Shown one piece after another: positions 1,887 through 4,890 of a stretch of 32,982 bases of DNA. Position 1 is the stretch's first letter; every line of letters begins with the position of its first letter. Source of the stretch: Oscillibacter sp. (lineage in GTDB: Bacteria > Bacillota > Clostridia > Oscillospirales > Oscillospiraceae); the NCBI GenBank assembly GCA_017482345.1, contig JAFUNB010000033.1:1-32982 (forward strand). Direction: 5' to 3'. Position numbers and translations under genes: made by a program. The notes beneath the pieces are model-generated. The model was not told where the DNA came from. It saw only the letters and a list, made by a program, of their open reading frames with translations, and made no database searches.

Positions 1887-2587
1887 GCGCCGCCATGGAG
1901 CTGCTGCAGGTGGCCCAGGCGGGAGACCGGGAGGCCTGCGAGCAGGCAGTCATTGAAAACAGCGGCCTGATCTGGAGCATCGTGCGCCGGTATTACGGCC
2001 GTGGCGTGGAGCCGGACGACCTGTATCAGTTGGGTTGTCTTGGTTTTTTAAAGGCAGTGCAGGGATTCGACTTTTCTTACGGCACCTGCTTTTCCACATA
2101 TGCCGTTCCGAAGATCGCAGGGGAGATCCGCCGCTTTTTGCGGGACGACGGAACCGTAAAAGTCAGCAGGACCATACGGGAGCAAGCGATTCGACTTTAC
2201 AGTACCAGAGAGCGGCTGCGGCAGGAATTGGGCCGGGAACCGTACCTTTCAGAGCTGTCTGACTGCACCGGACTGACGGTGGAGGAGATCGCCCGGGCGG
2301 ACCTGGCGGCCAACGCGCCGAAGTCGCTGCAGCAGGAAACGGTTGACGGCCTGACACTGGAAGGAATGCTGGGCACGGAAGCGCCGGAGGAGGAGCTGGT
2401 GGAACGCATCGCCCTGCGGGAGCTCATCGACCGGCTGCCGGAAAAGGAGCGGCTGACCATCCTGCTGCGGTATTTCAAATGCCTGACCCAGGAGCAGACA
2501 GCCCGGGTGGTTGGCGTGTCTCAGGTGCAGGTCTCCCGTCTGGAACGGCGGGGGCTGCAGCGTCTGCGGGAGAGTTTTGCTCCTTAA
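1883..2587 (+). CDS. sigF: RNA polymerase sporulation sigma factor SigF
   Basis: A 234-residue sigma-70-family factor, somewhat shorter than B. subtilis sigma-F (255). It is the first compartment-specific sigma factor of the forespore. Region 2 contains DLYQLGCLGFLKAVQGFD and the -10-recognition segment around FSTYAVPKIAGEIRRFLRDD. Region 3 follows as TVKVSRTIRE. Region 4 ends with a helix-turn-helix in QEQTARVVGVSQVQVSRLER that would read the -35 element. The position directly after spoIIAB with a four-base ATGA overlap separates it from sigma-G, SigE and SigK. Its 3' end overlaps the convergent TIGR03915-family gene by 113 bases, with no terminator between them. Confidence 0.93.
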   Translation: MSAAMELLQVAQAGDREACEQAVIENSGLIWSIVRRYYGRGVEPDDLYQLGCLGFLKAVQGFDFSYGTCFSTYAVPKIAGEIRRFLRDDGTVKVSRTIREQAIRLYSTRERLRQELGREPYLSELSDCTGLTVEEIARADLAANAPKSLQQETVDGLTLEGMLGTEAPEEELVERIALRELIDRLPEKERLTILLRYFKCLTQEQTARVVGVSQVQVSRLERRGLQRLRESFAP

Positions 2588-3332
2588 AATAGTCCTCGTC
2601 CTGAAATTCTGTCATGGTGTTCCAGTACCGCTTCGGCATCTGCGTCTGCCGGCACTTGGGGTTGTACCGCTCTTTGATGGCGATGGTGTCGTAAAACCGC
2701 TTCCACAGCAGGCGGTAGCGGGCCTCGGCCTCATCCGGCGGAGCCATTTCGAAGTGTTCCAGCGGCTGGATGACAGCTTTTCCGTTGGCATAGAGGAGGA
2801 CCTCCTTGTGGGTCCGGTCATACAGGAAAAATGTCTCGCCCTGATAGCGGGCGCAAAAGTGGCTGCGCAGCAGGGGAAGGACCCGGTTCTTCGGCTCAAT
2901 CTCACCGCCCAGCACGCCGCCGAAATCGGAAAAGCGGGTGAAACCCTTCAGAAGATGGGCCTCGCCGTTTAAGTGCCGCACGGCGGCGGCCACCGGGTGC
3001 AGCGTCTCGTCGGAAAAGTTCCGCAGAAAGCCGGGGCCTTCCTTCAGCAGCTTCACCACCACCCGGTACATGTGGATCTCCTTGTCCGGCAGGCAGGTAA
3101 GATGACATTTTTGCAGCAGATTTGCTGTATAGGGCGAGCACTTTACAATCTTTCTCAGTACGCGGTTTGCGTGTTCCCGGTCGGTAAGAATACTGCGGGA
3201 AGCGAACAGCGTGGGAACAAGGTCCTCATCGCGGTAAATGGCGGTGAGGACCTCTTTGTTTGCGTAGCTGTCAAAGACGCAGCAGAGGAATCCCTCGAAG
3301 CTGCCGTCGTAGTAGTAAACCATATCTGTCAT
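2475..3332 (-). CDS. TIGR03915 family putative DNA repair protein
   Basis: A 285-residue protein of the TIGR03915 family (DUF4130-like), which is encoded beside the radical SAM protein TIGR03916 and in some genomes fused to a uracil-DNA glycosylase-like domain. Its chemistry is not established. Recognisable features are YYYDGSFEGFLCCVF at the start, NFSDETLHPVAAAVRHLNGE near the middle, and MPKRYWNTMTEFQ near the end, which resembles the usual C-terminus of the family. The ATG at 3332 has GAGG seven bases upstream; the in-frame ATG at 3338 leaves one base and is less likely. The gene starts nine bases after the radical SAM stop, so the two are co-translated. The last 38 or so residues, rich in A, P and S, are read antisense to the end of sigF and look like a run-on tail. 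Confidence 0.85.
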   Translation of the reverse strand: MTDMVYYYDGSFEGFLCCVFDSYANKEVLTAIYRDEDLVPTLFASRSILTDREHANRVLRKIVKCSPYTANLLQKCHLTCLPDKEIHMYRVVVKLLKEGPGFLRNFSDETLHPVAAAVRHLNGEAHLLKGFTRFSDFGGVLGGEIEPKNRVLPLLRSHFCARYQGETFFLYDRTHKEVLLYANGKAVIQPLEHFEMAPPDEAEARYRLLWKRFYDTIAIKERYNPKCRQTQMPKRYWNTMTEFQDEDYFKEQNSPADAAAPAVPDGRPAPETRQPPGLSAPGSGI

Positions 3333-3341
3333 AAACATACC

Positions 3342-4616
3342 TCATACGGTGGCCAGCGCGTCGAACAGGGACAGCTGCACCATCTCCGGCTGGGGAAGCT
3401 GAGGCCGCTCGACGGCGATCAGGTTGCGTAGCAGGCTGTCCTGCGTGAACAGCAGCCCCTCGGCCCGCTTGCCGGAGGCGGTGAGAAAATACTGCGCCCG
3501 CTTCATGACAACACCCAGCTTTCGCAGATCCTCGATCCGCAGCCGACCTGCCCGGCGAGCGGTCAGGATCCGGCGGGCGGAGGTGACGCCGATACCGGGG
3601 ACTCGCAGCAGCGCCTCGTAATCGGCGGTGTTGACTTCAACCGGGAAGAAGTCCAGATGGGCCAGCGCCCAGCTGCACTTGGGATCCACCAGCGGGTTGA
3701 AATCCTGATTCTGTTCGTCCAGCAGCTCTTCAGCCCGGAATCCGTAGAACCGCAGCAGCCAATCCGCCTGATACAGCCGATGTTCCCGTAGCAGGGGCGG
3801 CTTCACATCTTTCGAGGGAAGCAGCGCGTGCTCCACCACCGGCACATAGGCGGAGTAGAACACCCGCTTGAGCCGGTACTGATCGTACAGCCCCTGAGTC
3901 AGGCGGAGAATGTGATAGTCACTGTCCGCCGTGGCGCCCACGATCAGCTGGGTGCTCTGGCCGGCGGGGGCGAATTTGGGCGCGTGGCGGTATTTGACGA
4001 TCTCCTCGTGGTTTTGTTTGCCCCGTACCTGAATCTGCCGCATAGGGGCCAGAATGGCCTGCTTGGTCTTATCCGGCGCCAGCGTCTTCAGACCCGATTC
4101 AGAAGGCAGTTCGATATTCACGCTGATACGGTCCGCCAGAAAGCCCAGCTGCTCCACCAGCTCCGGCGAGGTGCCGGGGATGGCCTTGGCGTGGATATAG
4201 CCGTTGAAGCGGTATTCCTCCCGCAGCAGCCGCAGGGATTGGATCATCAGCTCCGTGGTGTAGTCCGGACTGCGCAGCACGCCGGAGGAGAGGAACAGTC
4301 CCTCGATATAGTTGCGGCGGTAAAAGCTGATGGTCAAGTCCGCCAGCTCCCGGGGCGTGAAGGCGGTGCGCTTCGTGTCGTTGCTGCGGCGGTTGACGCA
4401 GTATTTGCAGTCGTACACACAGCAGTTGGTCATCAGCACCTTCAGCAGCGTCACACACCGGCCGTCCGCAGAAAAGGAATGGCAACACCCGGCCACAGAA
4501 GAGGAGGTGTTGCCAATGTAACCCTTTTTGGATGTGCGGCTGCCGCCGCTGGATGTGCAGGCTGCGTCATATTTGGCTGCGTCTGTCAGGATCGTCAGTT
4601 TTTCCAGAACGTCCAT
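3342..4616 (-). CDS. Putative DNA modification/repair radical SAM protein (TIGR03916 family)
   Basis: A 424-residue radical SAM enzyme. The 4Fe-4S-binding CX3CX2C is at C66, C70 and C73 (CVYDCKYC), and other conserved cysteines lie at 20, 44, 45, 54 and 65. A C-terminal helix-hairpin-helix DNA-binding motif follows in YEALLRVPGIGVTSARRI. The family is annotated as putative DNA modification/repair because of this HhH and its link to TIGR03915 and uracil-DNA-glycosylase-like proteins; the substrate is unknown. The last 11 residues begin with QLSLF (414-418), a canonical beta sliding-clamp-binding pentapeptide, suggesting recruitment to replication or repair sites. No good ribosome site precedes the ATG at 4616. 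The upstream miniprotein gene stops 12 bases before it, so coupling is likely. It is transcribed from the LexA-type promoter at 4797-4825. Confidence 0.9.
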   Translation of the reverse strand: MDVLEKLTILTDAAKYDAACTSSGGSRTSKKGYIGNTSSSVAGCCHSFSADGRCVTLLKVLMTNCCVYDCKYCVNRRSNDTKRTAFTPRELADLTISFYRRNYIEGLFLSSGVLRSPDYTTELMIQSLRLLREEYRFNGYIHAKAIPGTSPELVEQLGFLADRISVNIELPSESGLKTLAPDKTKQAILAPMRQIQVRGKQNHEEIVKYRHAPKFAPAGQSTQLIVGATADSDYHILRLTQGLYDQYRLKRVFYSAYVPVVEHALLPSKDVKPPLLREHRLYQADWLLRFYGFRAEELLDEQNQDFNPLVDPKCSWALAHLDFFPVEVNTADYEALLRVPGIGVTSARRILTARRAGRLRIEDLRKLGVVMKRAQYFLTASGKRAEGLLFTQDSLLRNLIAVERPQLPQPEMVQLSLFDALATV

Positions 4617-4628
4617 ACGCGCATAGGA

Positions 4629-4754
4629 TCAGCGGGCCATGGCACGGCGATGATGACGCCGGGCAGGACGCTCGATATAGTCGATGACGCGAAACAGCTG
4701 TGCAGTCAGAAACGTGACGCCAACCAGCATGAAAAAGAAAGCCCAACCTGTCAT
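4629..4754 (-). CDS. 41-residue single-span membrane protein, first gene of LexA-type operon
   Basis: A small gene encoding 41 residues. Residues 3-21 (GWAFFFMLVGVTFLTAQLF) form one hydrophobic segment. A short tail rich in Arg and His (RPARRHHRRAMAR) follows, which by the positive-inside rule should stay in the cytoplasm. AAAGGAGG (4764-4771) lies nine bases before the ATG, the strongest ribosome site in this operon. The promoter is immediately upstream and the radical SAM gene starts 12 bases after the stop. I recognise no family. Known SOS-induced miniproteins of this format include cell-division inhibitors such as Caulobacter SidA and membrane toxins such as TisB. A similar role here is only an inference from the operators and topology. 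It could instead serve mainly to couple translation of the next gene. Confidence 0.72.
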   Translation of the reverse strand: MTGWAFFFMLVGVTFLTAQLFRVIDYIERPARRHHRRAMAR

Positions 4755-4776
4755 AATGTACGTCCTCCTTTAAAAT

Positions 4777-4790
4777 CGAACTGTTGTTCT
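4777..4790. promoter_or_regulatory. LexA-type SOS box, downstream operator
   Basis: CGAACTGTTGTTCT contains GAAC-N4-GTTC, the core of the Gram-positive SOS box (CGAAC-N4-GTTYC). It covers the predicted transcription start, near 4790 on the minus strand, so a bound repressor would block initiation. Its centre is 29 bases from that of the second box. Confidence 0.75.
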
Positions 4791-4796
4791 ATACAT

Positions 4797-4825
4797 ACTA
4801 TAACTCGAACAACTGTTCGTGTCAA
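4797..4825 (-). promoter_or_regulatory. Promoter of the miniprotein-radical SAM-TIGR03915 operon
   Basis: On the minus strand this reads TTGACA, 17 bases, TATAGT: a perfect -35 (4820-4825) and a five-of-six -10 (4797-4802) at ideal spacing. The whole spacer is occupied by the LexA-type palindrome. The predicted leader is about 35 bases. Confidence 0.85.
4806..4819. promoter_or_regulatory. LexA-type SOS box, spacer operator
   Basis: CGAACAACTGTTCG has perfect five-base inverted arms, CGAAC and GTTCG, around four bases. It lies exactly between the -35 and -10 hexamers, a standard repressing position. Confidence 0.82.
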
Positions 4826-4834
4826 GAGAAAAAC

Positions 4835-4875
4835 GCAAAAAAATCCCCCGCTTTTTTTGCAAAAGCGAGGGATTT
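4835..4875 (-). terminator. Terminator of the threonine aldolase gene
   Basis: Read on the minus strand, a stem with AAATCCC and CGCTTTT arms (one mismatch) ends in seven T. It lies just upstream of the SOS operon promoter and insulates it from readthrough. Confidence 0.85.
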
Positions 4876-4890
4876 CAAGGGCTTGCGGCA

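Follow-up and report, generated by a model that had tools for sequence, protein, structure and literature searches.

A probable LexA-controlled promoter with paired operators heads a miniprotein and radical SAM repair operon in Oscillospiraceae

Which regulator acts on a promoter whose spacer is filled by a palindrome, and what would the genes behind it do once they are released? The question is raised by a 32,982-nt stretch of Oscillibacter sp. DNA (contig JAFUNB010000033.1, assembly GCA_017482345.1), here called the window. An earlier note had read positions 4777 to 4825 as a promoter TTGACA-N17-TATAGT on the minus strand, with one palindrome in the spacer and a second over the predicted start, and had assigned it to a DNA-damage-induced repair operon. 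Our promoter scan confirmed this layout. On the minus strand, the −35 element TTGACA (4825-4820), the 17-nt spacer CGAACAGTTGTTCGAGT (4819-4803) and the −10 element TATAGT (4802-4797) follow one another. They agree with the consensus at 11 of 12 positions and rank first among four promoter-like matches in 601 bp, where shuffled sequence gave a mean of 0.3. Both boxes were also found as described, i.e., the LexA-type operator 1, CGAACAGTTGTTCG, lies within the spacer (4806-4819, minus strand) at 7 nt from the −35 start, and the LexA-type operator 2, AGAACAACAGTTCG (4777-4790, minus strand), lies at a spacing of 29 nt from it, over the transcription start expected at about 4790. An operator in the spacer and one over the start occupy the classical blocking positions. 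With boxes of the CGAAC-N4-GTTCG type placed in this way, the site has the properties of a member of the Gram-positive LexA regulon whose operator can block the promoter. On the same strand, the Shine-Dalgarno sequence GGAGG of the first gene, which encodes a miniprotein, was read at 4764-4768, and a hairpin scan found a terminator-like hairpin of the upstream aldolase-like gene at 4840-4876.

Taken alone, GAACN4GTTC is a weak eight-base motif, which is what speaks for reading the palindromes as chance or as structural repeats with no regulatory role. The window holds three such sites against a shuffle mean of 0.49 (2 of 100 shuffles reach three), and two of the three are the promoter operators. 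Throughout the 1.63-Mb assembly the motif occurs at 20 places, compared with 9 for a reversed control pattern; the promoter boxes are the sole pair among the listed sites of the assembly that are less than 100 nt apart.

We compared the arrangement with 80 relatives' loci taken from named records in one scan, two of which (L185 and L190) share one assembly, so that the set does not amount to 80 genomes. A miniprotein gene stands between promoter and radical SAM gene in 57 of these loci, and together with the window they make 58 operons, in which boxes were allowed up to two mismatches; by our own arithmetic, such a box arises by chance in about one of ten random 25-position stretches. In 57 of the 58 the promoter reads TTGAC[A/G]-(17, once 16)-TAnnnT with the spacer box in one and the same register. 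The second, downstream box was present in all 57 operons that could be analyzed and stood at exactly 29 nt in 46 of them. This conservation of spacer box and spacing makes the chance reading scarcely credible. A third, upstream box was found in 35 of 57 operons, at exactly 28 nt in 27. The window is counted among the 57 and itself lacks this box, the place for which, about 4834-4847, is occupied by the hairpin of the upstream gene. One close relative, L147, has kept the miniprotein, but the 320 nt ahead of its radical SAM gene (L147:2681-3000) contain no LexA-type site. Among the 23 loci without miniprotein, nine have the promoter with a spacer box in another register, and in 12 of the remaining 14 a site with one mismatch lies 30-44 nt ahead of the radical SAM match; the two without a site are L198 and L192, the sequence of the latter ending 36 nt upstream.

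A second sample consisted of the 65 genomes, out of 200 of the family, that carry TIGR03916 above cut-off; some organisms occur in both sets. Here 260 nt upstream of TIGR03916 were scanned, a site had to agree with the core motif at seven or more of its eight bases, and a genome was scored as having canonical lexA when a match exceeded the family cut-off. At least one box-type site was found in 51 of the 65 genomes, compared with a mean of 6.0 and a maximum of 12 in 50 rounds of dinucleotide shuffling. The boxes are thus conserved in relatives, in this sample as well as in the miniprotein operons, and a loss of the palindromes in related genomes, which would have refuted the earlier note, was not observed. 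Sites were present in 48 of 52 genomes with canonical lexA versus 3 of 13 without, and these three, the window's genome included, are assemblies of 72-85% completeness. When only genomes at least 90% complete were counted, the figures were 40 of 43 with lexA versus none of nine without (Fisher P 6e-8). Collapsed by genus, they were 25 of 26 versus none of four (P 2e-4), which is the fairer comparison because related genomes are not independent. As only four of the 30 genera are without lexA, the association is partly phylogenetic. Four genomes (G108, G180, G014 and G047) have lexA and no site at TIGR03916. In eight genomes from three genera (L020, L021, L023, L024, L026, L129, L133, L137), TIGR03916 is kept, and canonical lexA and boxes were not found. 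If these drafts are complete, the gene must be controlled otherwise there.

Is the repressor LexA itself? The boxes might instead serve another repressor with a LexA-like motif, e.g., of phage type. For this one may adduce that a search of the window's assembly, which is 72% complete at 1.63 Mb, recovered no lexA (TIGR00498), and that the lexA boxes across the family are slightly different, mostly RGAACRAATGTTTG-like. As a yardstick, the 400 nt upstream of lexA, in some cases shortened by a contig end, contain a site of this kind in 19 of 30 instances. In recA upstream regions alone (260 nt), just 2 of 30 had a site, which counts against LexA control and seemed adverse until the window's genome and the two congeners each turned out to have a site about 2 kb upstream of recA. 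In the window's genome, among whose nearest named relatives are Oscillibacter and Dysosmobacter, CGAACAAATGTTTG heads a gene row DUF1385-prmC-recA (gene names by eye). This LexA-type site lies at L254:3836-3848, ahead of DUF1385 and prmC, and reads GAACAAATGTTTG, the base C that precedes it having been taken from the translation. The two congeners have GAACAAATGTTTG and GAACAAACGTTTG about 2 kb upstream of recA; the intervening genes were read in the window's genome only. Both same-genus genomes searched contain lexA, in each case with the box GGAACAAATGTTTG. In one of them, G155, AGAACAAATGTTTG stands upstream of a gene that reads by eye as uvrB, and AGCACATCTGTTCG, with one core mismatch, upstream of one that reads by eye as dinB. 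The LexA-type motif hence agrees with the operon boxes at the recA row in the own genome, at lexA in both congeners and at uvrB and dinB in G155, so that a differing motif, the other refuting outcome of the earlier note that could be checked, was not seen either. As the motif is common to these genes of genome or genus, and as site presence tracks canonical lexA across genera, we regard a different repressor as very improbable. As a side observation from the window's genome and its two congeners, i.e., from one genus, recA may be driven there from the distant LexA-type site and not from a promoter of its own.

The genes downstream had been named in the earlier note as a miniprotein, TIGR03916 and TIGR03915, and family scans showed this to be right. 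The second gene (3342-4616, minus strand) encodes a TIGR03916 radical SAM protein with a helix-hairpin-helix motif (rSAM_link_UDG; 653 bits versus a cut-off of 343.5; Pfam Radical_SAM and HHH_3), for which only weak local PDB matches were obtained. The third (2475-3338, minus strand) encodes a TIGR03915/DUF4130 putative DNA repair protein (204 bits versus a cut-off of 112; Pfam DUF4130). TIGR03915 and DUF4130 were its sole matches at E ≤ 0.001, and no glycosylase model was among them. Its fold model is of modest confidence (mean pLDDT 71) and gave no PDB match at E ≤ 0.001, nor did its sequence up to E 1.

Motif, geometry, conservation, co-occurrence with lexA and the boxes at core SOS genes together support the proposed LexA control of the repair pair. 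Judged by these comparisons, the site is very probably a promoter repressed by LexA, and the three genes behind it, for the miniprotein, TIGR03916 and TIGR03915/DUF4130, very probably form an SOS operon. We infer LexA binding itself, induction and the enzymatic repair step. In the undamaged cell, one LexA dimer on operator 1 would fill the space between the −35 and −10 elements and a second dimer on operator 2 would cover the start; with both bound, we propose that RNA polymerase cannot open this near-consensus promoter. Many relatives would add a third LexA site upstream. After damage, RecA on single-stranded DNA would stimulate self-cleavage of LexA and the promoter would fire, a course of induction that we assume because of the LexA family.

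How far is such control known? The closest comparison is the COG1573-COG4277 operon, the second member of which we take to be of TIGR03916 type. SOS control of this operon was predicted in Bacteroidetes, and a glycosylase-based system is cited for Verrucomicrobia and Alphaproteobacteria (PMC8565304, accessible parts). As far as these parts go, both operons would place a radical SAM gene of TIGR03916 type, together with a repair gene as its partner, under the SOS response. In contrast, the published operon has a different LexA and motif, whereas the window has the B. subtilis-type motif, with two or three operators in the clade. Moreover, the partner here matches only TIGR03915/DUF4130, without a uracil-DNA glycosylase domain match, and a miniprotein leads the operon. 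For the Gram-positive LexA regulon, GAAC-N4-GTTC/T operators are described at lexA, recA and uvrB in the available portions of studies on C. difficile (PMC4234289), a gut meta-regulon (PMC3998124) and C. thermocellum (PMC8457756), through which B. subtilis was also covered; the gut survey adds error-prone polymerase genes (PMC3998124). Supplementary tables aside, the accessible text of the Gram-positive surveys (PMC3998124, PMC4234289, PMC8457756, PMC9380542, PMC7739468) does not name the pair. It does mention a 'radical SAM protein', not specified further, as part of the Gram-positive core regulon (PMC7739468), the radical SAM gene vnz_31145 (PMC9380542) and two unspecified 'DNA repair proteins' (PMC8457756), all of which could be relatives. 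We found no report of LexA control of the pair in Clostridia or Oscillospiraceae, nor of the miniprotein, in a search whose scope excluded most subscription papers and supplementary tables. As far as the accessible texts tell, a related radical SAM-glycosylase operon has already been described as LexA-controlled in other phyla; what is new is the clade, together with the operator array and the miniprotein. For the TIGR03916/TIGR03915 pair, itself uncharacterised, probable SOS control is hereby extended to a group of gut bacteria, where genera without canonical lexA and boxes act as natural controls. A role of the pair in dealing with DNA damage becomes more credible in this way.

The first gene of the operon (4629-4754, minus strand) encodes a putative membrane miniprotein of 41 residues, with its counterparts at the same place in the 57 relatives' loci. 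An alignment of 42 of these 57 with the window gave the approximate pattern MTGWxxFFxLVGVxxLTAQLFRxIDxIERPxRRxRR. For the 16 of 58 genes that are exactly 126 nt long (120 pairs, 101 unsaturated), the median dN/dS was about 0.17 in frame, whereas reading in the other two frames gave 1.40 and 1.80; in this set, codon positions 1, 2 and 3 are identical in 79, 84 and 53%, respectively. The miniprotein, which the earlier note had only named, is a genuine and conserved gene on which purifying selection acts. AlphaFold2 predicted one helix, residues 2-28, followed by a low-confidence tail (mean pLDDT 81.8); this C-terminal tail is basic, and the helix presumably spans the membrane because it is hydrophobic. 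No match was found in NCBIfam, Pfam or PHROGs. A small, conserved and selected family of putative membrane proteins is hence defined, under a tightly built LexA-type promoter, which opens the way in which these bacteria pause after DNA damage to direct tests. In a FastTree tree of 145 radical SAM rows (duplicates included, L192 not counted), miniprotein presence required two changes, so that it is a clade trait; the tree fits gain as well as loss. Thirteen loci have a longer miniprotein tail, often with tryptophans (L166, L171, L172, L175, L177, L180, L181, L184, L187, L188, L193, L194, L197).

Homologues were also found away from the operon. In a profile search of the 200 family genomes, the miniprotein was recovered at this operon in ten (E ≤ 2e-7), some of which were in the profile by construction, and two further genomes gave weak matches only (E 0.004 and 0.006). 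Six of the ten carry second copies, seven in all, when part of the first-look candidates was scored: one in the window's genome G000 (E 1.5e-10) and the others in G036, G080 (two), G082, G154 and G155 (E 2e-8 to 9e-4). The diverged copy of the window's genome (L270:1495-1584, contig C10) lies in a mobile-element-like replication region, with an HTH-type regulator on one side and, on the other, a replication initiator (phrog_270, E 7.5e-31). Four of the copies (two in G080, one each in G082 and G154) stand directly 3' of a small gene, and G155 has one of this kind a gene further up; two of these small products were scanned and match the phage families phrog_434 (RecE-like) and phrog_1956, one of them being also Mu Gam-like (E 0.002). 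The G036 copy has no mobile-element neighbour in the stretch seen. Within 300 nt upstream, no LexA-type site was found for six of the seven second copies; for the remaining one (L275), a site with one mismatch lies 56 nt upstream, within the gene before it. Three viral contigs contain further relatives (L278:4001-4120, L279:665-775 and L280:4001-4096); those of L278 and L279 are immediately preceded by an HTH-regulator-like gene and followed by what read as replication genes. A second viral scan returned two of the same contigs, named phages gave no match to the viral-contig miniprotein, and an order-level search of 295 genomes added one match, broken by three stops. Judged by their neighbours, the diverged homologues lie mostly in mobile-element-like regions, and the family appears to be shared with mobile elements.

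What might the miniprotein do? As a conserved, one-helix protein at the head of a repair operon that LexA probably keeps closed, it is a good candidate for a component of a DNA-damage checkpoint. We lean, without calling it probable, to an SOS-made inner-membrane effector that would delay division or alter the membrane while the enzymes work. Small membrane proteins that inhibit division are an obvious comparison, among them SidA, which we take to be SOS-induced. YneA (PMC8457756) and SosA (PMC6851548) are SOS-controlled division inhibitors of this kind and DidA is an SOS-independent one (PMC4211646), according to the accessible parts of these papers. Like YneA, SosA and SidA, as far as the available descriptions go, the miniprotein is small, with one predicted membrane helix and a LexA-type promoter; in contrast to division inhibitors it has a basic C-terminal tail and no LysM, and the likeness is one of description, not of sequence. 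The gene that faces lexA in B. subtilis and C. thermocellum is yneA or one like it, in the portions available (PMC8457756). The miniprotein gene, in contrast to such a gene divergent to lexA, heads a repair operon, so that on these descriptions it is not a YneA. In both congeners, the first open reading frame above 90 aa that faces lexA looks by eye like secG. When six genomes, the two congeners among them, were searched for a YneA-like protein, the best E was 0.3, with a query too approximate to judge absence by.

Alternatively, the miniprotein could be a translated leader that opens or couples the radical SAM ribosome-binding site, with a peptide that is itself functionless. Its gene comes first in the 57 loci, as it does in the window. 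Its end lies between −12 and +1 nt relative to the radical SAM start in 44 of the 57 loci and overlaps this start by 22 nt in the other 13, which are the long-tail loci listed above; such adjoining or overlapping ends suggest translational coupling. But a mere leader should not show the purifying selection on residues seen here, nor the conserved helix and basic tail, and homologues occur elsewhere without a radical SAM gene behind them. We therefore consider a leader without own function rather unlikely.

A third reading has the miniprotein depolarise the membrane, leading to dormancy or reduced energy, in the manner of E. coli TisB or DinQ. DinQ is a LexA-controlled E. coli peptide with a single transmembrane helix and TisB an E. 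coli SOS membrane peptide (PMC3567139, accessible parts). Predicted LexA-type control and a single predicted helix make the miniprotein resemble both, and DinQ in particular, in so far as that source describes it (PMC3567139). Yet tisB and dinQ are type I toxin-antitoxin loci outside any repair operon, on the same partial basis, whereas the miniprotein gene lies within one, where it is co-transcribed and apparently translationally coupled with the enzymes. Its charged tail also seems unlike TisB, and we hence regard membrane depolarisation as doubtful. The remaining share of our expectation goes to a tether or some other role. The membrane effector stays the reading to which we lean.

The far end of the operon meets a gene of another kind. 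The TIGR03915 gene (minus strand) and the 3' end of a SigF-type gene (plus strand, 1883-2587) overlap convergently by 113 nt (2475-2587). Such an overlap was found in 44 of 48 relatives with both ends callable and measured exactly 113 nt in 38. This count used 50 of 60 open reading frame calls as TIGR03915-like; ten were left out as not TIGR03915-like or without a clear call (L189, L190, L192, L198, L205, L209, L212, L214, L218, L223). Where the sequence reaches far enough, 53 of 54 miniprotein loci are followed by a sigF-type gene, versus 1 of 17 others, and it is always opposite in orientation to the operon. As the last gene overlaps sigF by 113 nt, the SOS transcript would be antisense to the end of sigF, and antisense transcription across sigF after damage is possible. 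A crude terminator scan of the SOS strand gave matches in 8 of 55 loci (three inside sigF, five near its start), the window included with a terminator-like match near the sigF start (1879-1860); the opposite-strand control gave 5 of 55, so that the SOS-strand count does not exceed its own control. The scan is weak evidence, and Rho termination was outside its scope.

One LexA promoter might thus serve a whole checkpoint, i.e., repair, a brake on membrane or division and a block of the sporulation sigma factor through antisense sigF. The miniprotein would then be a new SOS membrane effector that mobile elements also carry, with diverged copies by replication and recombination genes and on viral contigs. 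Transcription into sigF is assumed because of the 113-nt overlap and the few terminators before the far sigF end in the crude scan. We think it unlikely that all these parts hold together.

The constant overlap length was considered as a sign of selection and rejected, since the first antisense stop falls at the same place of sigF in most relatives. By inspection, the length is constant because this stop lies in conserved sigF codons, where TTC-A.. reads TGA on the other strand.
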